From: Saccharothrix syringae
GTDB taxonomy: Bacteria > Actinomycetota > Actinomycetes > Mycobacteriales > Pseudonocardiaceae
Direction of reading: 5' to 3'
NCBI RefSeq assembly: GCF_009498035.1
Contig: NZ_CP034550.1
Coordinates: 3,100,001 to 3,164,000 of the forward strand
Length of the DNA: 64,000 nucleotides
Numbering within the stretch: the stretch's first letter is position 1; the number at the start of each line of letters is the position of its first letter. Shown in pieces: positions 1-13,420 of the stretch. The notes below the pieces were generated by a model that saw nothing but the letters and a program-made list of their open reading frames with translations, had not been told where the DNA came from and did not search any database. Both the position numbers and the translations under genes were made by a program.

Positions 1-1460
1 TCATCGCTGGCGGTGGCGAGTTGGGTTCCGTCCGGGCTGAACGCGACATCCCAGACCGAGTCGCTGTGTGTGGTGAGGGTGTGCAGGGTCTCGCCGGTGG
101 TCGCGTTCCAGATCCGTGCGGTGCCGTCGCTGCCGGCGGTGGCGAGTTGGGTTCCGTCCGGGCTGAACGCGACACCCCTGACCCAGTCGGTGTGCCCGGT
201 GAGGGTGTGCAGGGTCTCGCCGGTGGTCGCGTTCCAGATCCGTGCGGTGCCGTCATCGCTGGCGGTGGCGAGTTGGGTTCCGTCCGGGCTGAACGCGACA
301 TCCCAGACCGAGTCGCTGTGTGTGGTGAGGGTGTGCAGGGTCTCGCCGGTGGTCGCGTTCCAGATCCGTGCGGTGCCGTCGCTGCCGGCGGTGGCGAGTT
401 GGGTTCCGTCCGGGCTGAACGCGACATCCCGGAGCGAGCCGCTGTGCCCGGTGAGGGTGTGCAGGGTCTCGCCGGTGGTCGCGTTCCAGATCCGTGCGCC
501 GTCATCGCTGGCGGTGGCGAGTTGGGTTCCGTCCGGGCTGAACGCGACACCCCAGACCCAGCCGATGTGTGTGGTGAGGGTGTGCAGGGTCTCGCCGGTG
601 GTCGCGTTCCAGATCCGTGCGGTGCCGTCGCTGCTGGCGGTGGCGAGTTGGGTTCCGTCCGGGCTGAACGCGACACCCCTGACCCAGTCGGTGTGCCCGG
701 TGAGGGTGTGCAGGGTCTCGCCGGTGGTCGCGTTCCAGATCCGTGCGGTGCCGTCGCTGCTGGCGGTGGCGAGTTGGGTTCCGTCCGGGCTGAACGCGAC
801 ATCCCGGAGCGAGCCGCTGTGCCCGGTGAGGGTGTGCAGGGTCTCGCCGGTGGTCGCGTTCCAGATCCGTGCGCCGTCATCGCTGGCGGTGGCGAGTTGG
901 GTTCCGTCCGGGCTGAACGCGACACCCCAGACCGAGTCGGTGTGCCCGGTGAGGGTGTGCAGGGTCTCGCCGGTGGTCGCGTTCCAGATCCGTGCGCCGT
1001 CATCGCTGGCGGTGGCGAATTGGGTTCCGTCCGGGCTGAACGCGACACCCCAGACCGAGCCGCTGTGTGTGGTGAGGGTGTGCAGGGTCTCGCCGGTGGT
1101 CGCGTTCCAGATCCGTGCGGTGCCGTCGCTGCTGCCGGCGGTGGCGAGTTGGGTTCCGTCCGGGCTGAACGCGACACCCCAGACCGAGCCGCTGTGTGTG
1201 GTGAGGGTGTGCAGGGTCTCGCCGGTGGTCGCGTTCCAGATCCGTGCGGTGCCGTCGCTGCTGCCGGCGGTGGCGAGTTGGGTTCCGTCCGGGCTGAACG
1301 CGACACCCCAGACCGAGCCGCTGTGTGTGGTGAGGGTGTGCAGGGTCTCGCCGGTGGTCGCGTTCCAGATCCGTGCGGTGCCGTCGCTGCTGCCGGCGGT
1401 GGCGAGTTGGGTTCCGTCCGGGCTGAACGCGACACCCCAGACCGAGCCGCTGTGTCCGGT
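1..1460 (-). repeat. At least 12 near-identical WD40 coding repeats
   Basis: Tandem units of 123, 126 or 129 bp, each encoding one WD40 blade of 41-43 residues (VAFSPDGTQLAT ... ARIWNATTGETLHTL). Most of each unit is the same base for base; differences cluster in the H-S/T/I-G/D-S/W-V/L-W/R-G/D stretch before the VAFSPDG strand and in one-codon indels in the SDG turn. The array continues past position 1. Confidence 0.95.
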
Positions 1461-4145
1461 GAGTGCCTGGAGGCGGGTCCGGGCGGGCGGCAGCGGGGTC
1501 GGTAGGTAGTCGCCGCTGTGAACGTGACGGAGTTGGTTGGTGTTCGCGCCGGTCAGGTCTGTGTTGTCCAGGCGGCAGTGGCGGAGGAACGCACCGGCGA
1601 GGTCGGCGTCGCGCAGGCTTGCATCGACGATTGTGGTCTTGTGCAGTACGGCTCGTTCGAGGCGGGCGGCCTGAAGGCTTGTGTGGGTGAGGTTGACGTG
1701 GTCCCAGCGGGTTTCGCGCAGATCTGCTCCGGCCAGCGTGGCGGCAGTGAACACGAGCGGGTTGGCCCTCGTACCGATGAACTGCCAGCCCCGTAGCCGG
1801 GCACCGCTGAGATCGCTGCCGACCAGCGTGGGATGCGGGCGGTTGTGTGCGCGGGCGTGGAGCGCGTACCGGAGCCACAGCTCGCTGGCTCCTTCCAAGT
1901 ACGACGTACGCCACCGGTTCAGGGTGGCCCGGAGCGCCTCTTGATCGTCGTCGTCGGCGATCAACTGGCCCAGGAAGTCCAACGTCTCCGCCGACGGGAT
2001 GGGAAGGCACCAGTCCTCACGGCGGTCATCGCGTATCGCGTCGCACAGGTACTGGGCGAGGAAGTACTCGTGGATGGAGCTGTGCGCGAATTGAAAGTCG
2101 GGGCGGTCAGGCCCGTTGTGGTCGTTGCGGACCACGAACGTGGCGGTGCGTAGGTCCTCCTCGAGTTGGTCGCGTGAGATGCTTCCGTAGCGTCTGCCGA
2201 GCACGGGGTCTGTGGCGAGTTGTTCATCGAGCCAGTCGTCCAGGTCGGCGCTGTCGACCCGCCGGTCACCACGCTTCCACGACCATGCTGCCAGTCGAGC
2301 CATCAAGGTGAGCTTGTGCTCGGGGCGCAGACGGTGCTTGCCGAGGTCTCGTGTGAGCCAGTCGCGCAAGACCTGCCGGTAGATCGTGGCCGCGTACACC
2401 GGGCGTTGCTGCGAGAGGCGGTCTTCGATGAACGGGATCTGCGCGGCGACCTTGGCCAGCGTGTAGGGGCGCGTGGCCAGGTCGGACAGGTCGTGTACCG
2501 CTCCCAGCATGTCCATCACCTGCGTGACGTCCTGGTCCGGCAGCGCCTTGTCCAGGTACCCGCGGATCTGCTCGTCGGTCAACGGCAACAACATCAGCGC
2601 GACGTAGTCCTCGGCGGCTGCGAGATCACGGTCGTGCTCGAGGAAGTGCCTGGACTGTTCCCGCAGCGACCGGAAGTAGTGGGTCCGGCAGGACAGCAGA
2701 ACCTTGGTGTGCACCCCGGCGAACGGGGCGTGAACCGTGCCCTTGCCTTTCCCGCGGATCGGCCGGAGCTTGAGCAACTCATGGGTGAAGGCGATACCTT
2801 GCGCGGCGTCGAGCCTGACCAGGACCTCGTCCAAACCGTCGATGACGAACAGGGTGGGCACCGTCCTGGCCCGTGCGATGACCTCTTCCCCCGACGGTAG
2901 CCGCGTGTCACCCGGCGCCCAACCACGGTTGATGCACTCGGTCAGGATTTCGGGCAGGGTCGGCACCACGTTGCTCAGGTTCCCGAGACGCCGGAGGTCG
3001 AAGTACAGCGGCTCGGGCCGCAACGGGGCTGGCGGGGTTTGCAGCCGTTCGGTCAACTCCTGGCAGGTGATCGTCTTACCGGTGCCGTACTCGCCCAGCA
3101 ACGCGGCGAGCGGCGCACTGTCCGGATCACGTGCCCAATCCATGAGGTACGCCACGACGTCCTCGACCCGCCGCTCCTGGTCGTGCGCGCCGATGGCCGT
3201 GTCCGGATCCATGCCGCCGGGACGGCCGTGCAGGTCGAAGAACTGGTCCCCGCACGTCTCCTTGAGCATGCGCCGGTCTTTCGTGCCCATGTCGAGCGGC
3301 TTCGCGCTCACGCGGTCGAGCTGGCGGTGGATGTGCTCGACAAGGCCATTCACCCACTTGTCCCGGGCAGACTGGCTCTTGAGGTCATTGAACGGGACGC
3401 CCTGAGGCGTGCCAGGGTAGACAGCTTTGGGTTCGAACGCACCCGCGCGGGAGCTCGTCGGCCGCAGCAGCACCGGCATCACCGTCGGGCCGGAGGACCC
3501 GCTGTAGGCACGCAGCGTCTCGTTGAGCGCAGGTTGCGCGTACCAGGCGTTGCTCACCGCGGCGACCACCAGTTCGCTACCCGCCACCTCCATGCGCAGT
3601 TGCTTTTCCCGGTCGTCACCGGCCAGCACGTCCTTATCGGACCGCCACACGGCGATTCCGTGCTGCTCACCGCCCAATGCCTCGAACAGCAGGTCCCACA
3701 GGCGTCCAGCTGTAACGTCGTCCGCCGTGGCGTTGCACAACACGATCCGTCTCGGCCCGAGCACAGTCGCCTGCCGGTCCTCGATGAGTACGTCACGAAC
3801 CGCCTCGTGCTCACGCAGAGGTGCGCCGACCACGTCGACGCGCTCGGCCCAGAAGCTCAGCGTGCGGCCACGCGCGCCCGATCTCTTCGCGCCGTGGACC
3901 TGGACCTCGAGGTCCACACTCTCGTCTACTGCGGCGGTGTTCACCAGCTTGACCAAGCGCTCCAACGCCTTCGTCGCGGCCGCCGGGGTCCGCTGGGCGA
4001 ACAATAGACGCTGCACCTGTTCCACGGACAACTCGTCTGCCGTCCCCATCGCGTCCAGCAGCACGCCCATTGCCTCGCGGTCGATCGAGCTCAAGGACAC
4101 CCCGAGCAACCGGGCGCGAGCCGTGGCGGGAGGTATCCGTCGCAT
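1..4145 (-). CDS. TIR-like/NACHT/pentapeptide/WD40 STAND protein (NLR-like), 3' end outside window
   Basis: At least 1381 residues; the frame is still open at the window edge. In order I see: a helical lead of about 125 residues; a TIR-like domain (about 125-270) with WRSD and VSNAW segments matching the neighbouring TIR protein; a NACHT-type NTPase with Walker A GEYGTGKT near residue 353 and Walker B TLFVIDGLDEV near 432; pentapeptide repeats at about 765-875 (ADLRE, ADLAG, TDLTG); then WD40 repeats from about 895 onward. STAND proteins of this build are nucleotide-driven switches in which the repeats sense a trigger and the N-terminus signals. The ATG lies 7 bases after the TIR gene's stop, so the two are probably co-translated. 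Role as an antiphage or self-recognition sensor is inferred. Confidence 0.85.
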   Translation of the reverse strand, partial: MRRIPPATARARLLGVSLSSIDREAMGVLLDAMGTADELSVEQVQRLLFAQRTPAAATKALERLVKLVNTAAVDESVDLEVQVHGAKRSGARGRTLSFWAERVDVVGAPLREHEAVRDVLIEDRQATVLGPRRIVLCNATADDVTAGRLWDLLFEALGGEQHGIAVWRSDKDVLAGDDREKQLRMEVAGSELVVAAVSNAWYAQPALNETLRAYSGSSGPTVMPVLLRPTSSRAGAFEPKAVYPGTPQGVPFNDLKSQSARDKWVNGLVEHIHRQLDRVSAKPLDMGTKDRRMLKETCGDQFFDLHGRPGGMDPDTAIGAHDQERRVEDVVAYLMDWARDPDSAPLAALLGEYGTGKTITCQELTERLQTPPAPLRPEPLYFDLRRLGNLSNVVPTLPEILTECINRGWAPGDTRLPSGEEVIARARTVPTLFVIDGLDEVLVRLDAAQGIAFTHELLKLRPIRGKGKGTVHAPFAGVHTKVLLSCRTHYFRSLREQSRHFLEHDRDLAAAEDYVALMLLPLTDEQIRGYLDKALPDQDVTQVMDMLGAVHDLSDLATRPYTLAKVAAQIPFIEDRLSQQRPVYAATIYRQVLRDWLTRDLGKHRLRPEHKLTLMARLAAWSWKRGDRRVDSADLDDWLDEQLATDPVLGRRYGSISRDQLEEDLRTATFVVRNDHNGPDRPDFQFAHSSIHEYFLAQYLCDAIRDDRREDWCLPIPSAETLDFLGQLIADDDDQEALRATLNRWRTSYLEGASELWLRYALHARAHNRPHPTLVGSDLSGARLRGWQFIGTRANPLVFTAATLAGADLRETRWDHVNLTHTSLQAARLERAVLHKTTIVDASLRDADLAGAFLRHCRLDNTDLTGANTNQLRHVHSGDYLPTPLPPARTRLQALTGHSGSVWGVAFSPDGTQLATAGSSDGTARIWNATTGETLHTLTTHSGSVWGVAFSPDGTQLATAGSSDGTARIWNATTGETLHTLTTHSGSVWGVAFSPDGTQLATAGSSDGTARIWNATTGETLHTLTTHSGSVWGVAFSPDGTQFATASDDGARIWNATTGETLHTLTGHTDSVWGVAFSPDGTQLATASDDGARIWNATTGETLHTLTGHSGSLRDVAFSPDGTQLATASSDGTARIWNATTGETLHTLTGHTDWVRGVAFSPDGTQLATASSDGTARIWNATTGETLHTLTTHIGWVWGVAFSPDGTQLATASDDGARIWNATTGETLHTLTGHSGSLRDVAFSPDGTQLATAGSDGTARIWNATTGETLHTLTTHSDSVWDVAFSPDGTQLATASDDGTARIWNATTGETLHTLTGHTDWVRGVAFSPDGTQLATAGSDGTARIWNATTGETLHTLTTHSDSVWDVAFSPDGTQLATASD

Positions 4146-4152
4146 GGGGGGA

Positions 4153-4683
4153 TCACCGCTGCCTGTCGTCGCGCATCGCGTACCGGGCGAGAACCCGGTG
4201 CACCTCGACCACAAGGCGGTTTACCCATGCGTCCTGCGCCGACGTCCCGCGCGCCTCGCTGAACGGTCGTCCATAGCCGTAGATCTGCTTGCTCTTCAAG
4301 CCACGCCAGTCCGCCTGCTTGCTGACCTGCCGAAGCAGCAACGGAACCACATGCTTGCCGGGGACGTCGACGAGCGCGGGCAGTTCGACGCCGGTTATGT
4401 ACTTGCTGCCCAGGAAGGCGTTGCTCAACGCGACAATCCCGACCTCAGCCGTCGACAACGCGCCGCGGATCCGGACGTCCCAGTCCTCGCCGACAAGGAT
4501 CGCGTCGTCTGATCGCCAGAGTTGGAACTCGTACTCCTGGTCGATGACCATCGCCTCGGTCAACAGGTCCCACAAGCGCAAAACCAGCGCCTCGTCCCGA
4601 CCGACAAAACTGAGGAATACTCGCACCAGGGGTTTGCCCGAGCTTCCCACCTCTAGGCGCATTCCGGCTTTGTCCGTGCTCAC
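4153..4683 (-). CDS. TIR-domain protein
   Basis: 176 residues, essentially one TIR domain: RVFLSFVGRDE near the N-terminus, LWDLL, FQLWRSDDAIL, then GIVALSNAFLGS and GVELPAL, whose Glu sits where the catalytic Glu of NAD-cleaving TIRs lies. TIR domains either hydrolyse or cyclise NAD or act as adaptors. I chose the GTG at 4683 because GGAGG lies 5 bases upstream; an in-frame ATG at 4722 lacks a good site. The stop is 7 bases before the NACHT-WD40 gene, whose own N-terminal region resembles this protein, suggesting a partnered effector or adaptor. NADase activity is inferred, not shown. Confidence 0.82.
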   Translation of the reverse strand: MSTDKAGMRLEVGSSGKPLVRVFLSFVGRDEALVLRLWDLLTEAMVIDQEYEFQLWRSDDAILVGEDWDVRIRGALSTAEVGIVALSNAFLGSKYITGVELPALVDVPGKHVVPLLLRQVSKQADWRGLKSKQIYGYGRPFSEARGTSAQDAWVNRLVVEVHRVLARYAMRDDRQR

Positions 4684-4785
4684 GCTGGCCTCCTGCCGTG
4701 CGCCTGTCGGGATGTGTCGCAATAAGGTCGGATTGGTCGAGGGTACTGCACGGGGTGGCGGAGAGTTCGAGGGTGAGTGCTACTT

Positions 4786-5662
4786 GGAACTCCTAGTCCA
4801 ATAAGATTGGAATACAACTGGTCGTCGACGTGTTGATCTTGCTTTGGAAAGGGGGCGGCAGCTTCCCGGGATCGTCTCCGACGAGCTGTGGGCAAGCATC
4901 GAGCCGCTGCTGTCGGTGATGCAACGCCCCGGTGACCATCCCGGGCTGGCGGTGGCTGGACGACCGAAGGTGCTCCGGGCATCCTGCTTGTGCTCTACCC
5001 CGAGATCCCGTGGGGGGCCTGCCGTAGAAGCTGGGGACTCGGGCATGACCGCCTGGCGGCGGCCGCGGGACTGGCGCGAGACCCGGGGGTGTGGCAGCGG
5101 TTGCATGAGAACCTGCTCGCCGAACTGCACGTCGCGGACGCGCTGGACCGGTCGCGGGCGGTGATCGACGGTTCGCACGTGCGGCCCCGCAGGAGCTGCC
5201 CAAAACGCGGTCCGAGTCCGGTCAGCAGTGCCGGAAGCGCCACCTGGTCACCGAAGCGCACGGCATCCTGTTGGCGGTGTCGTTGACCGGCGGCAACCGC
5301 AACGACCTCGTCCAGCTGATGTCGTTGATCGAAAAGGTAACCCCGATGCGGGGCGCGCGGCCGTCCCCGCCGACGCCCCGACGCGCTCTACGTCGACCGG
5401 GGGTATGACCACGACAAGTACCGCAAGCCGTTACGCGACAAGGGCATCGGACTCGTGACCACCCGTCGCGGGGCCGGGCACGGCTCCGGACCGAGCATGT
5501 ACCGATGGACGGTCGAGCAGTCCTTCACACTGCCGCACTGGTTCCGCCGCCTGCGGGTCCGGTGGGAGATCCGCGACGACATCCACAAGGCATTCCTCAG
5601 CCTGGCCCGCGGCATCATCTGCTGGCGCCGCCTGCACAACCTCTCATCGAGTTACGAGTTCT
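4786..5662. mobile_element. Decayed IS5-family insertion sequence (about 877 bp)
   Basis: Encloses a frameshifted IS5-type transposase. Candidate terminal inverted repeats are 4786-4805 (starts GGAACTCCTAG) and the reverse complement of 5643-5662 (starts AGAACTCGTAA), about 13 of 20 bases matching. Length suits the IS427 subgroup. No clear target duplication was seen. The right end supplies the last codons and stop of the convergent gene ending at 5652. Confidence 0.6.
4844..5654 (+). pseudogene. IS5-family transposase, frameshifted
   Basis: The reading frame breaks several times. Recognisable pieces in order: VSDELWASIEPLL (about 4874-4912); GVWQRLHENLLAEL and RAVIDGSHVRP (about 5090-5190); SLTGGNRNDLVQLM (about 5280-5320); YVDRGYDHDKYRK (about 5391-5430); and YRWTVEQSFTLPHWFRRLR with ICWRRL near the end (5500-5640). 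These are the N-terminal helix, DDE catalytic and C-terminal motifs of IS5/IS1421-like transposases. The central catalytic region is split over frames, so it is not expected to make an active enzyme. Confidence 0.8.
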
Positions 5663-6965: not shown

Positions 6966-7721
6966 ATGCTCGGCGCTCGACTGATTCGGGTTCTCGTCAT
7001 CGCGCCGGCGGTGCCCGTTGTCACGTTGGCGCAGCTCAACCTTCCTTCGGCGCAGTTCTGGCACGGACTTCGCCCCGTGCTGTACGTGGCGGTCGGGTTG
7101 TGCTTGTTGGCGACCGTGCACGAACTCGGCAGCTTCGTGTCCTACTTCGGTCACCTCGGCGCGTTACGCAGTTACGACCAGGATGTGCGTGCCTTGCTCA
7201 GTGCAACCCTCTCGCGGGTCGAAGCGGGTACCGGTATCGACTGGCGAAGTGTCGGCGTGTCGGCCTACTGCTTGCGGGGCGTGCCCTGGCGTCGCAGGTT
7301 GATAATGATCGATGAACTGCGGCTGGGTAGCGGGCCGATGCCGGGGCAGCCGCCATTGCGGCCGGGCAAAGGGGTCGTCGGGGTGGCGTGTAAACGTTCC
7401 GAGGGTGTGTGCTCCAACTGGGAGGACTACGTCAAAGTGTCCATCGCCATGGGGCGGCAGCGTTGGGAGCGGCAGGACAAAGAAGCGCGTTTTGGACTGA
7501 CCTGGGGAGAATTGCTCAGGACTGAATCACTAACCTGGGTTTCGGCGTTCCCCGTCTATTCGCGGACGGCGAAGCTGGTGGGGGTGGTCGCCGTTGACGC
7601 GCCCACCGACTTGTCCGGTGCGGATGTCTCGCGAGTGATCCGCGACTTGGCGGCATCCATGGGTGATGTCGGATCGCCGCCTCGTTCCTGGTGGAGTTAT
7701 GTCGGGAGACGCAATGGCTGA
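6966..7721 (+). CDS. Membrane-anchored GAF-like domain protein
   Basis: 251 residues. Two N-terminal transmembrane helices (about 7-26 and 36-58), then a soluble domain of about 160 residues with a GAF-like layout: LRPGKGVVGVACKRS, WVSAFPVYSR and LVGVVAVDAP resemble the core strands of small-molecule-binding GAF domains. No catalytic or HTH domain follows, so it may be a membrane sensor or a partner of the next gene. The stop TGA at 7719-7721 overlaps the start of the sugar transferase at 7714, so the two are translationally coupled. The ligand is unknown. Confidence 0.65.
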   Translation: MLGARLIRVLVIAPAVPVVTLAQLNLPSAQFWHGLRPVLYVAVGLCLLATVHELGSFVSYFGHLGALRSYDQDVRALLSATLSRVEAGTGIDWRSVGVSAYCLRGVPWRRRLIMIDELRLGSGPMPGQPPLRPGKGVVGVACKRSEGVCSNWEDYVKVSIAMGRQRWERQDKEARFGLTWGELLRTESLTWVSAFPVYSRTAKLVGVVAVDAPTDLSGADVSRVIRDLAASMGDVGSPPRSWWSYVGRRNG

Positions 7722-9453
7722 GGAGTACGTCCGCGACCCAGGTGCACACCGGCTGTCGGAGTCGTTCGTTGACGACGTCGAACGTTTCGGCGGGTCAAGC
7801 GGTCTGGTCGGCCGGTTGAGGATGCGGGCAGCGGTCATGTCGTCGCCGATACCGGCCGGAACCTCGGACAGCGTCGAGCCGTCGGCTTCTGCGCGGCACG
7901 CGCGGGCCCGCGGGCGCATGACGGTCCATGAGGCCGGTGGTGAGCATGCGGGGAAAGCCGGCCGCGTGGCTACCGCACACCCAGAGGTACGCACCACCTC
8001 CGCACCGCGCCGTCCACCAGTGCCGCCCACGCGGTCGGTCACACGGCCTACCGTTAGTGGCTGGGAACCCGCCTACCGCTACGGCGTGATCGCTGCCGAT
8101 GTGCTGTGCACTGTCCTGGTCGTGGTGCTGGCGGGTGCCGTGCTACAAGCCCGACACATCTCCTTCGAAGCGCTGCCTCTGCTTGCCCTGGAGGCGGTGA
8201 CCGCGTCGGTGATCCTCGGTTCGCTGCGGCTCAACCGTGCATGGGACAGCAGGGTTTTGGGCCAGGGCGCGGAAGAGTTCCGCCGCCTGGGCCGCAGTCT
8301 GTTCGGCTCCGTCGTGGCATTGGGGTTGGGTGCACTCGCGGCAGGGCTGCCCGATGCCCGCGCGTGGGCCTTCCTGGTCGGACCGGCGGTCGCGCTGCTG
8401 GCGTTCCCGGTCCGCTACGCCCTGCGTCGCCCGCTTCACCGGGCCCGCAGCGAGGGGCGCTGCCTGTTCTCGGTGCTGGCCGCAGGCAACCTCGGCACCG
8501 TGTCCGACCTGATTCGCCGTACCGGAAGAGCTCCGCACCTGGGGTGGCGCGTGGACGCGGTCTGCACTGTCGACGGCCGCGCTGGTACGAACGCGACATT
8601 GCACGGTGTTCCGGTCGTGGGTCGGTTCGACGAGGTGGCCGAGCAGGTGCGCCGCGGCGGCTACCGGATCGTCGCGGTCACCCCCGACGCCTACTGGACG
8701 CCCCGCCGCCTCCAGCAGCTGGCCTGGGACCTGGAGGGCACCGGCACCGAGATGGTCGTCGCGCCCGCGCTGATGGACTTCGCGGGTCCGCGCCTGCACG
8801 TCACCGGCGTGCTCGGGATGCCGCTGCTATGGGTGTCGGAGCCGTCGTTCACCGGCTTCCGCCGCGTGGTCAAGGCGACTGTGGACAAGGTCGGTGCGGC
8901 TTTGTTGTTGATCACATTATCTCCGGTGCTATTGGCTATAACCGTGGCCGTTGTGGCCGATACCCGCGGATCGGTGCTCTACCGACAGCGAAGGATTGGC
9001 AAGAACGGTGTGCCGTTCACCATGCTGAAGTTCCGCACCATGGTCACCAACGCCGACGCACTGGGTCTCAAACTGAAGCAGGTCAATGAGGGCCCGGGTG
9101 TGCTGTTCAAGATGAGGCGGGACCCGCGGGTCACCGCGGTCGGCCGGGCGCTGCGCCGCTACTCCCTGGACGAGCTGCCGCAGCTGTTCAACGTGCTCGG
9201 CGGCGCCATGTCGCTGGTGGGCCCGCGCCCGCCGCTGCCCGAGGAGAGCGCTGGTTATAACCCGGTCATGCACCGCCTGCTGGCAGTCAAGCCGGGCCTG
9301 ACCGGTATGTGGCACGTCTCCGGCCGCGATGACCTGTCGTGGGAGGAGGCCATGCAACTTGACCTGCGCTACGTCGAGGACTGGTCACCAGCCCTCGACG
9401 CGTTCATTCTTTGGAAAACCCTGGTCGCTGTGATGCGGGGTAGCGGCAGCTGA
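7714..9453 (+). CDS. Polyprenyl-phosphate sugar-1-phosphate transferase (WbaP/UDP-glucose lipid carrier type)
   Basis: 579 residues from the ATG at 7714, preceded by CGGGAG; in-frame ATGs at 7663 and 7699 lie inside the previous gene and have poorer sites. A variable N-terminus is followed by four membrane helices (about 130-250), a Rossmann-like CoA_binding_3 region (GVPVVGRFDEVAEQV), a fifth helix and the catalytic bacterial sugar transferase domain: LKFRTMVTNAD, DELPQLFNVL, SLVGPRP and KPGLTGMW. It should start an exopolysaccharide or glycan repeat unit by moving a sugar phosphate from a nucleotide sugar to a membrane polyprenyl phosphate. No other glycan genes lie nearby, so it is an orphan initiator. 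Confidence 0.92.
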   Translation: MAEEYVRDPGAHRLSESFVDDVERFGGSSGLVGRLRMRAAVMSSPIPAGTSDSVEPSASARHARARGRMTVHEAGGEHAGKAGRVATAHPEVRTTSAPRRPPVPPTRSVTRPTVSGWEPAYRYGVIAADVLCTVLVVVLAGAVLQARHISFEALPLLALEAVTASVILGSLRLNRAWDSRVLGQGAEEFRRLGRSLFGSVVALGLGALAAGLPDARAWAFLVGPAVALLAFPVRYALRRPLHRARSEGRCLFSVLAAGNLGTVSDLIRRTGRAPHLGWRVDAVCTVDGRAGTNATLHGVPVVGRFDEVAEQVRRGGYRIVAVTPDAYWTPRRLQQLAWDLEGTGTEMVVAPALMDFAGPRLHVTGVLGMPLLWVSEPSFTGFRRVVKATVDKVGAALLLITLSPVLLAITVAVVADTRGSVLYRQRRIGKNGVPFTMLKFRTMVTNADALGLKLKQVNEGPGVLFKMRRDPRVTAVGRALRRYSLDELPQLFNVLGGAMSLVGPRPPLPEESAGYNPVMHRLLAVKPGLTGMWHVSGRDDLSWEEAMQLDLRYVEDWSPALDAFILWKTLVAVMRGSGS

Positions 9454-11267: not shown

Positions 11268-12142
11268 CAGTGGCTCCCCCGGTCGTAGTGGTCGGCCCAG
11301 CGGGCCAACCGCTCGTGGGACTCATCCGGGCCGAGCGCCAAGACGCCCAATCGCCACATCTTGAGGTGGTAGTCGGCCACGACCTGGGGGTCGTCGTGGA
11401 AGACGGTGGCGGTGTCGGTCTCGGCGCAGGCGATCGGGCGGATCGGGTCGGGGAAGGTCATCAGGGTCGCCGGGTGCCGCAGCCGGGCGCGCGTTCCCGC
11501 GGTCATGGGGACCAGGCGCACGGTGACGCCGGGCCAGCCGCACATCAGCGTCAGGTGCAATGCCTGGTCGCGCATGACCACCGGGTCGTCCAGGCCCATG
11601 TGCAGCGCGACCTCGTGCACGTAGAGCAGCACGCGGGGGCCGGTGGGCGCGTGCAGCACCCGCTGCCGCTTCATCCGGGCACCGACCTGGTCCTGGTCGC
11701 CGGTCAGGGCGCGGGCGTAGTCCTCGGTCTGACCCAACGCCGGGACGGCGAAGGGCTCGTAGGCGGTGACCGTGGCCGCGTTGGCCTCGTGGAGGGTCAG
11801 CACCGTCAGGGCATCCGGGCAGGGGGTGTGCAGCCGCAGGAAGTTGTGGATGTCGATCCGATGGTCGACCAGGGCCAGCACGCGGTCCCGGACGGCCTTG
11901 TCCACGCCGTAGCGGCCGATCAGGATCCCGATCTCCCACAGACTGGTGCCCCGGCTGCCCAGTTCCAACTTGCTCAGCTTCCCCGCCGACCAACCCAGGT
12001 CTTTGGCCACCCTGGGTAGGGCCAGTCCGATGTGGCGGCGGATCCGGCGCAGTTCCTCGCCCAGCTCCCTGCTGCGGGCGGTGGTCAACCGCTCCCAGGT
12101 GTTCCCGGTGGTCTTCTCGGCGGCGTTGTCGGTGGTGTCCAT
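11267..12142 (-). CDS. XRE-family regulator with DUF5753 domain
   Basis: 291 residues. N-terminal helix-turn-helix at about 25-85 (ELRRIRRHIGLALPRVAKDL, WSAGKLSKLELGSRG) followed by the DUF5753 sensor region (YEPFAVPALGQTEDYARAL, QRVLHAPTGPRVLLYVHE, LRHPATLMTFPDP). These regulators are very abundant in Streptomyces and Pseudonocardiales; some govern development or antibiotic genes, often with small partner proteins. The zinc-finger gene is coupled downstream. Target genes cannot be told from sequence. Confidence 0.9.
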   Translation of the reverse strand: MDTTDNAAEKTTGNTWERLTTARSRELGEELRRIRRHIGLALPRVAKDLGWSAGKLSKLELGSRGTSLWEIGILIGRYGVDKAVRDRVLALVDHRIDIHNFLRLHTPCPDALTVLTLHEANAATVTAYEPFAVPALGQTEDYARALTGDQDQVGARMKRQRVLHAPTGPRVLLYVHEVALHMGLDDPVVMRDQALHLTLMCGWPGVTVRLVPMTAGTRARLRHPATLMTFPDPIRPIACAETDTATVFHDDPQVVADYHLKMWRLGVLALGPDESHERLARWADHYDRGSH

Positions 12143-12188
12143 CTGCGTTCCTGATGTGCTCGGATGCCGCAGGTGCGGCGACGGGTGG

Positions 12189-12974
12189 TCAGACGGTTCC
12201 GGCGGGGACCAGGTCGGGTGACGGCCACGCGGGTAACCCGAACTCGGCCAAGACCAGGCCGTCGACCACCGGCAGCTCGCCCACTACGGGGGTGACATCG
12301 GACAGCACGCGCACGGCCGCGGCGACTTCCGGCGCGTTCACCAGCGATGTCGCCAGGGCGCGGTTGAAGCTCTTGTCCGCTCGGGCGTGTTGCCCGAGGC
12401 TGCGGTGGGCCAGGCCAGCCAGCACCAGACACACCGCGTGCCGGCGTGGGTCTGTGGTTGCTTTGTCCAGCTGCCTGTAGCAGGCGTCGGCACGCGACAG
12501 GTGGTCCAGCGCGGCGTCGGGACGGCCCGCTTCGAGCATCACCGCGCCCAACTCGCGCAGCGTCCACGCCGAATGCGCATCCACCGACCGCCCGTGCCGG
12601 ATCAGCAACTCCAGCAGTTCGTCCAGGCAGTCGGCTACCTCGTGCAGACAGCCCACCGCGCGATCGATGCGTGCCAGCGAGTCCAGCGCGTCCCGATATC
12701 CCCGAAACGTCTCCTCCCGCAGGGGCGTCTCGCTGTCCGCCCGTGCCCGCCACACCGCCAACTCGTGCACGCCCATCCGGTAGGCAAGTCCGTAACGGCC
12801 CTGCCGGGCGTAGGACACCCCGGCCTGTCGCAACATCGCGGCGACGTCACCGTCCTGTGGCAGGAACCGCCGCCGTCCGACCGCCAGCTCCGCAGCCTGC
12901 TCTGCGCTGCGGGCTTCGACCTGTTCGCGCATCGACCGTCTTCCGGCCCGGTGATGCCCGGTGTCCACCGTCAT
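12189..12974 (-). CDS. TPR-type helical repeat protein
   Basis: 261 residues, all helical, with TPR-like units: AAMLRQAGVSYARQGRYGLA, RTLRE-type LRELGAVMLEAGRPDAALDH, and VLAGLAHRSLGQHARADKSF. No enzymatic or DNA-binding domain. Probably a protein-interaction scaffold of the kind found next to XRE regulators in actinomycetes. Its ATG overlaps the stop of the upstream frameshifted gene (ATGA at 12971-12974), so expression was probably coupled to it. C-terminal tail after about residue 200 is not TPR. Confidence 0.7.
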   Translation of the reverse strand: MTVDTGHHRAGRRSMREQVEARSAEQAAELAVGRRRFLPQDGDVAAMLRQAGVSYARQGRYGLAYRMGVHELAVWRARADSETPLREETFRGYRDALDSLARIDRAVGCLHEVADCLDELLELLIRHGRSVDAHSAWTLRELGAVMLEAGRPDAALDHLSRADACYRQLDKATTDPRRHAVCLVLAGLAHRSLGQHARADKSFNRALATSLVNAPEVAAAVRVLSDVTPVVGELPVVDGLVLAEFGLPAWPSPDLVPAGTV

Positions 12975-13420
12975 GAGTGGTCACCGTCCTGGCCGGCGAG
13001 CCTGTCGAGGACGAAGCCGAGTGCGTCCTCCAGCGCTTGGTCGTGCCCGTCGGCGGGCAGCAGGCGGTGCGGCAGCCCCAGGTCGCACAGCACCTGCCCC
13101 ACAGCGGTCGGCCAAACGCCGAAACGCCACACCCGCATCACGCGGCTTGTCTTCTCCCAGCAGGATCTCGGAGGCCGGCGTGGTGCGCAGCAGCGAGCCG
13201 CAGTAGACGCTGTGATCGCGCACCAGCCGCTCCAGGCGGGCCAGCACGGCCGGACCGGCATTCTCGCCCCGGTCGGCCAGGGCGGTGCGGTAGTAGCCCA
13301 GCGCGTCGGGCACGGCACCGCGATGGTCTCCACCATCGTGGCGTGGTCGAGGTGCTCATCGGTCCACAGCCGCTGCCCAGTCTTCAGCGCGTCGAACTCC
13401 ACCACGGTCACCTCGCGCAT
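12971..13420 (-). pseudogene. Frameshifted hypothetical gene upstream of the TPR gene
   Basis: A single protein can be rebuilt only by changing frame twice. MREVTVVEFDALKTGQRLW (from 13420) runs to about 13317; ALGYYRTALADRGENAG through LLGEDKPRD lies in a second frame to about 13141; WRFGVWPTAVGQVLCDLGLP and GFVLDRLAGQD return to the first frame. The restored product would be about 150 residues of unknown function. Either the gene is decaying or these are two assembly errors; the intact flanks and the ATGA overlap with the next gene leave both open. Confidence 0.6.

Follow-up and report, generated by a model that had tools for sequence, protein, structure and literature searches.

The window analysed here, a stretch of 64,000 nucleotides, comprises bases 3,100,001-3,164,000 of the genome of the soil bacterium Saccharothrix syringae, which is assembled as a single contig of 10.93 Mb. 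On its minus strand, a receptor gene occupies positions 1-4145 and continues for 484 bases past the left edge of the window (L009:9518-14146), with a likely ATG at 4145; the open frame (L009:9518-14215, minus strand) holds all 14 WD40 blades. Pfam matches together with a direct reading of the blades give the layout NNH6–TIR-like–NACHT–pentapeptide–14×WD40. All parts lie on the minus strand: the NACHT N-terminal helical domain 6 (NNH6; 3798-4130; PF22737, 89.8 bits), an internal TIR-like domain recognised by alignment and a match to PF13676 (TIR_2; 3456-3680; 26.1 bits against a cut-off of 28), a NACHT NTPase with intact P-loop and Walker B (2763-3104; PF05729, 26.3 bits against a cut-off of 26.7), pentapeptide repeats (1536-1751; PF00805, 54.5 bits), a short N-terminal strand, RTRLQALT (1458-1481), which by its motif may be the closing strand d ahead of blade 1, and the blades themselves (1-1457; Pfam WD40 matches and a tandem repeat of 126 bases). 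Eleven blades are complete inside the window and the 12th is partial, blades 12-14 ending beyond it. The P-loop GEYGTGKT and the Walker B motif DGLDE are present in all five receptor orthologues which, with NNH6 and the pentapeptide repeats above the Pfam cut-offs and NACHT just below, bears out the earlier assignment to STAND-type receptors. A HET domain is absent from the 895-aa N-part (Pfam, E up to 1), which shows NNH6 and the TIR_2-like match instead.

Directly upstream lies a stand-alone TIR gene of 189 aa (4153-4722, minus strand; PF13676, 33.2 bits against a cut-off of 28), whose stop codon falls 7 bases before the likely ATG of the receptor. A TIR homologue precedes the receptor in all five orthologous loci, the window's included, with identities to the window's TIR of 86% (Amycolatopsis sp. 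CA-128772), 80% (A. alba), 77% (A. keratiniphila) and 60% (G206, a genome of the same genus as the source). The stand-alone TIRs are 33-37% identical to the TIR-like domains of the receptors. All five stand-alone TIRs have the stretch SNAFLGSxYITGVELPAL, which is not conserved in the internal domains. The Glu of YITGVELPAL, invariant in the five, may be the catalytic Glu of TIR NADases; its alignment with a Glu of 7uxr reaches only E 0.56, and the predicted structure of the stand-alone TIR is of low confidence (pLDDT 37.3). Judged from these motifs, the internal TIR-like domain probably lacks the catalytic Glu region, and we infer a division of labour in which the TIR would be the enzyme and the receptor the platform.

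PADLOC-DB 2.0.0 contains no model matching the NACHT or TIR parts of the receptor; only HEAT-ARM_XIII matched, with its best stretch in the blades (1350-1510), and the TIR gene gave weak matches only (PDC-S66 9e-4, ThsB 1e-3, SAVED5 5e-3). Among the flanking ORFs, several of which may not be genes, we found no clear defence family. A short ORF just upstream of the TIR gene (4844-5164, plus strand) shows a weak match to DUF4096 (IS4/5-type transposase; 20.4 bits, cut-off 34.3), and a bacterial sugar transferase (7663-9453, plus strand; PF02397, 207.9 bits) is unrelated to the receptor finding.

Near-identical blades with two variable segments

The initial annotation described near-identical WD40 blades with clustered variation. 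Indeed, the d-a strings that it listed match blades 1-12; its count of 12, however, falls short of the actual 14, the gene running 484 bases beyond the window, and its single stretch of changes proved to be one of two, the b-c loop having been missed. The recurring types that it named hold over the whole blade for blade 12, which repeats blade 10, and blade 3 is likewise identical to blade 2; the pairs 6/9 and 7/11 agree throughout the listed stretch, and each has a one-base difference outside it.

Blades 1-13 share on average 94.2% of their DNA (minimum 89.4%) and 88.3% of their protein sequence (minimum 78.0%) in pairwise comparisons with gap columns skipped. Blade 14 was left out of the DNA comparisons in all three arrays discussed below; in the window's array it departs from the others in its outer strand, which passes into the tail. 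Away from the variable segments, 29 codon columns remain, and in these the 13 blades show no synonymous and only one non-synonymous difference (L/F at codon 18 in one blade). Segment 1, the stretch of the initial annotation, consists of codons 1 and 3-8 at the d-a loop and the start of strand a. At codon 1, the GGA of blade 1 may be an intermediate between GGG and ACA. Segment 2 is the b-c loop, which occurs in five forms (GSSDGT, SSDGT, GSDGT, SDDGT and SDDG) and thereby gives blades of 41, 42 or 43 residues. Together, 13 of the 42 columns hold 97.6% of the non-synonymous diversity (permutation p ~1e-5; segments chosen on the same array). In the arrays of G206 and A. alba, which are independent of this definition, the same fixed segments account for 79.6% (permutation p 0.0019) and 59.8% (p 0.0003), respectively.

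This degree of repetition sets the array apart from the ten other WD40 regions of the same genome, nine of which gave a value: their mean internal identity is 0.27-0.56 versus 0.88 for the receptor. No two of the 13 blades compared fall below an identity of 0.78 (gap columns skipped), which places the protein among the Highly-Repetitive WD40 proteins, defined by at least 6/8 contiguous repeats with all pairwise identities at least 0.7 (Hu et al. 2017).

A structure prediction of the first seven blades (window 525-1502, residues 905-1230), made from the single sequence without alignment, folds as 28 strands, that is, a 7-bladed propeller (pLDDT 87.5, pTM 0.86). In blade 1 of this model, the d-a loop contains columns 3-5, strand a has column 7 in its first part, and columns 23 and 25 belong to the b-c loop. 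The variable codons thus occupy one face of the modelled propeller, as had been proposed. The solved structures nearest to the array are 2ymu, the WRAP-T designs, PkwA (5yzv) and ODA16. PDB 2ymu, which we take to be the WRAP protein Npun_R6612, is the best match in both sequence and fold, and column 7 varies between its aligned blades (R/W/N). By their number, and by analogy with HET-E (PMC12222747) and WRAP (PMC9218822), the 14 blades would form two 7-bladed propellers.

Blade number and possible exchange inside the array

Three single-contig genomes with the receptor, namely the source, G206 and A. alba, have exactly 14 blades each, built from three different homogenised units. The N-part of the receptor is 65% identical to the window's in G206 and 87% in A. 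alba (G298, taken as A. alba since its array is that of P0004). These three arrays show concerted evolution at a fixed blade number. Neither an unchanging set of blades nor evenly spread variation was found in the related genomes: the units differ and the variation is clustered.

The duplication and shuffling of blades suspected earlier is supported in part, namely by the different homogenised units of the orthologues and by an exchange of blocks inside blades in one of them. In G206, two b-c block types, which differ at 8 of 15 bases with silent ones included, are each found in combination with two d-a types (blades 4, 10, 11; 5; 6; 12, with V and M pooled at column 19). This suggests most simply an exchange inside blades, although recurrence is possible as the d-a types differ by only 2 bases. 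With exact haplotypes, the four-combination test gave one set in the window's array, one in G206 and none in A. alba, both sets resting on a single-base difference. A 375-base row of the tandem repeat search (TRF) had hinted at a regular duplication of two or three blades; no lag was significantly closer in the window's array or in G206, and we claim no periodicity for A. alba, where lag 3 gave p = 0.027 among eight lags. In Amycolatopsis sp. CA-128772 (L028, ~11400-13050), several b-c loops are stretched into low-complexity Gly/Asp/Asn runs, as if by slippage, and the array is broken by runs of N. Cassettes of the d-a segment recur across species at different blade numbers; D-W-V-R, for example, is found in blades 7, 11 and 14 of the window's array, in blades 2 and 7 of L030, and in L028.

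Is a number of 14 blades typical of such receptors? We examined the best 120 of 133 homologues, of which 4 gave no blade and 17 of the other 116 had no closed array end. Among the 99 closed arrays, 53 have 14 blades, 6 have 13, 4 have 15-16, 8 have 8-12 and 28 have at most 7; 46 thus depart from 14, 7 of them on contigs of at least 100 kb. On such long contigs, 14 blades were found in 23 of 31 arrays by the automatic count, whose profile was built partly from arrays it then counted, and in 24 of 31 after correction of A. alba (15 by automatic count, 14 by direct reading); the other seven have 2, 6, 7, 10, 11, 15 and 16 blades. Of the 28 arrays with at most 7 blades, 25 sit on contigs below 100 kb, which hold 68 of the closed arrays. 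These numbers fit, without proving it, the view that short-read assembly has collapsed the repeats; the contig of A. keratiniphila stops inside blade 1. Two Lentzea-type homologues (P0015 and P0016, 63-64% identical) have 14 blades with an internal identity of only 0.51, so that some close relatives have not remained homogenised. Many of the more distant homologues (from about P0037 on, among the matches listed) combine a PF01048 nucleoside phosphorylase with pentapeptide repeats and WD40, apparently a similar sensor joined to another effector.

The source genome belongs to the same family as Amycolatopsis, and the receptor is sparsely distributed there. At an E-value of up to 1e-20, 9 of 297 genomes searched in the family have a homologue, the source included, three of them close (at least 65%) and the rest 37-42% identical. 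At 1e-100, the receptor was found in 2 of 25 genomes of the genus and 3 of 80 Amycolatopsis genomes, and at 1e-60 in 2 of 397 genomes drawn from the order (the source and G124). This patchy spread, together with a higher identity to Amycolatopsis than to the congener, fits horizontal transfer. A mobile origin of the receptor was considered and rejected: searched with the 650-aa N-part, phages yielded nothing and plasmids a single remote match (25.9% identity over 43%).

Variable positions in homologous arrays

Are the same columns variable in other arrays of this kind? We profiled the 72 homologous arrays with at least 8 blades (from the best 120 of 133 homologues), dropping the last blade of each, and divided them into 37 highly repetitive ones (mean internal identity at least 0.7) and 35 less repetitive ones. 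In the former, the most variable columns are 23 (0.74), 5 (0.73), 7 (0.66), 4 (0.56), 3 (0.42) and 25 (0.39), the next reaching only 0.28. All 37 vary more at these six columns than elsewhere, with a median ratio of 4.6, which is descriptive as the columns were picked on the same arrays. The less repetitive arrays, with a ratio of 2.0, are also loose at these columns, so weak constraint there explains part of the pattern. Of the variation seen in this group, 77-86% is retained by the highly repetitive arrays at columns 4, 5, 7 and 23, 57% at column 3 and 61% at column 25, against 0-47% at the 36 other columns. The consensus units of the 37 arrays have a median identity of only 52%, so that homogenisation has probably taken place independently from array to array.

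For HET-D and HET-E of Podospora, positive selection was reported at codons 7, 9, 25 and 27 (PMC1805685). These flank the conserved codons 8 and 26 and belong to the d-a loop and the b-c turn, at the top of the propeller; a later fungal study gives the position set 10, 11, 12, 14, 30, 32 and 39 (PMC12222747). With an offset inferred from spacing, columns 5, 7, 23 and 25 around 6 and 24 reproduce the Podospora arrangement, and columns 3, 4, 5, 7, 23 and 25 share the spacing of the later set; the chance that all six fall into the 7-position set at the best offset is ~6e-5. The likeness to HET-E noted at the outset therefore extends to the spacing of the variable positions. Like the near-identical WD40 repeats of fungal HNWD proteins, the 37 arrays vary at the four selected positions, as columns 5, 7, 23 and 25 are among their top six of 42.

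Possible selection on the array surface

In all three single-contig arrays, columns 3, 4, 5 and 7 have an excess of non-synonymous events over the synonymous events of the entire blade (Fisher p 0.023, 0.003 and 0.011, from minimal event counts, i.e. small numbers with sites treated as independent). In segment 1, pN/pS is 2.08 in the window's array and 1.70 in A. alba, and G206 shows no synonymous change at all. Only this segment is raised: the b-c loop gives 0.97, 0.52 and 1.03, and the whole blade 1.63, 0.91 and 0.71 (window's array, G206 and A. alba). These values suggest diversifying selection on the array surface.

Could the array have been re-amplified recently from one or a few blades, with the differences being no more than mutations tolerated at loose loop positions and no diversifying selection? 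Re-amplification of young propellers from single blades has been described, even between closely related WRAP proteins (PMC9218822), and the variability of the same columns in less repetitive arrays, as well as a b-c pN/pS near or below 1, would agree with such an origin. However, the absence of any silent difference in 29 backbone codons contrasts with larger changes in the d-a segment than fresh mutation should yield, such as GGG/ACA at codon 1, and the excess of non-synonymous events at four columns recurs in all three arrays. Moreover, the b-c blocks of G206 are divergent, silent bases included, and yet common to several blades, and the number of 14 is constant in the three single-contig orthologues. 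We therefore regard a mere re-amplification as rather unlikely.

Discussion

We consider it probable, at about 0.6, that the locus is a two-gene TIR-signalling, NLR-like operon, whose receptor would sense non-self through a diversifying surface on a recombining array. The C-terminal blades would form two 7-bladed propellers, each blade presenting about six variable positions on the top face. Recombination within the array, by unequal exchange or gene conversion, would keep the backbone identical and re-sort the variable cassettes, while selection would hold both the diversity of the surface and the blade number at 14. We speculate that a non-self protein, most likely of a phage or another invader, would bind the array, upon which the NACHT ATPase would oligomerise; the TIR-like domain of the receptor may then recruit the stand-alone TIR, which is likely to be the effector and to consume NAD+.

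Several known systems resemble parts of this arrangement. HET-D, HET-E and HET-R of Podospora anserina have the same combination of NACHT and near-identical WD40 repeats, and HET-E, with 11 conserved and 3 divergent repeats, has been modelled as two 7-bladed propellers (PMC12222747), like the double propeller proposed here. The HNWD proteins carry a HET effector domain where the receptor has NNH6 and TIR, their repeat number varies between isolates, and their repeats are exchanged among paralogues, whereas the receptor's unit has no near-identical copy elsewhere in its genome. Fungal repeats have been described as unstable and as evolving in concert, with some sites under selection (PMC1805685, PMC2873952, PMC12222747), and actinobacterial repeats diverge fast within proteins (PMC5120217). 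The WRAP protein Npun_R6612 of Nostoc punctiforme is likewise a STAND ATPase with 14 near-identical blades in two 7-bladed propellers and no silent changes, with only 10 point mutations reported over the blades (PMC9218822). Its gene is coupled to a TIR-STAND gene (PMC9218822) and the receptor's to a lone TIR; the receptor, unlike Npun_R6612, has NNH6, TIR-like and pentapeptide parts. The window's locus shares the WRAP-type layout of 14 near-identical blades on a STAND ATPase beside a TIR gene, a likeness of layout. The Highly-Repetitive WD40 proteins, half of 305 being bacterial, combine high internal identity with diverse interaction hotspots (PMC5587647); they are a sequence class rather than a system, and the accessible text of that paper makes no mention of NACHT or immunity.

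Where could new blade variants come from? In STAND sensors of Thiohalocapsa and others, a C-terminal sensor on a STAND ATPase is also diversified, but there the target is a C-type lectin and the agent the reverse transcriptase of a diversity-generating retroelement (PMC10907252). We rejected such an element for the receptor, as the genome gave no RVT_1 match at E 0.001 (a control was positive in 3 of 14 genomes). Exchange with copies elsewhere was also rejected: a 361-base query matched the array 7 times and other places 6 times, with the best of these six covering 42 bases at 88%.

A narrower proposal, which we put forward only tentatively, is that the receptor is a bacterial counterpart of HET-E, in which recombination inside the gene would re-sort two cassettes per blade within a fixed 14-blade double propeller and so renew specificity with no outside donors, the paired TIR providing the response. 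Positions and 7+7 geometry would then be common with the fungi, by convergence or by descent. A role closer still to HET-E, namely allorecognition, in which the receptor would sense proteins of other strains or related bacteria rather than phage, could draw on the HET-E-like variable positions, the NACHT-WD40 layout, the proposed double propeller and the relation of fungal HET domains to TIR (PMC4986451); we judge it improbable. An array collapsed, expanded or chimeric through misassembly is highly improbable: such arrays do break short-read assemblies, as at the A. keratiniphila contig end and in the short arrays on small contigs, but the genome is a single contig, the frame is open through all 14 blades, and 14 blades recur in two other single-contig genomes.

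Precedents thus exist in the highly repetitive WD40 proteins, the Nostoc WRAP protein and the fungal HNWD receptors. What the present analysis adds is this family of TIR operons with its number of blades, the matching variable positions and the signs of exchange inside blades; among the matches listed from the open literature, which covers few subscription papers, we recognised none on the TIR-operon family or on the match between bacterial and fungal positions. If our reading of the operon is correct, a bacterium would renew the specificity of an NLR-like receptor inside a single gene, using the variable positions of fungal allorecognition receptors. The residues that set specificity would then be predictable; strains would be expected to differ in their sets of blades and not in blade number or backbone, and the stand-alone TIR to act as the responding enzyme.
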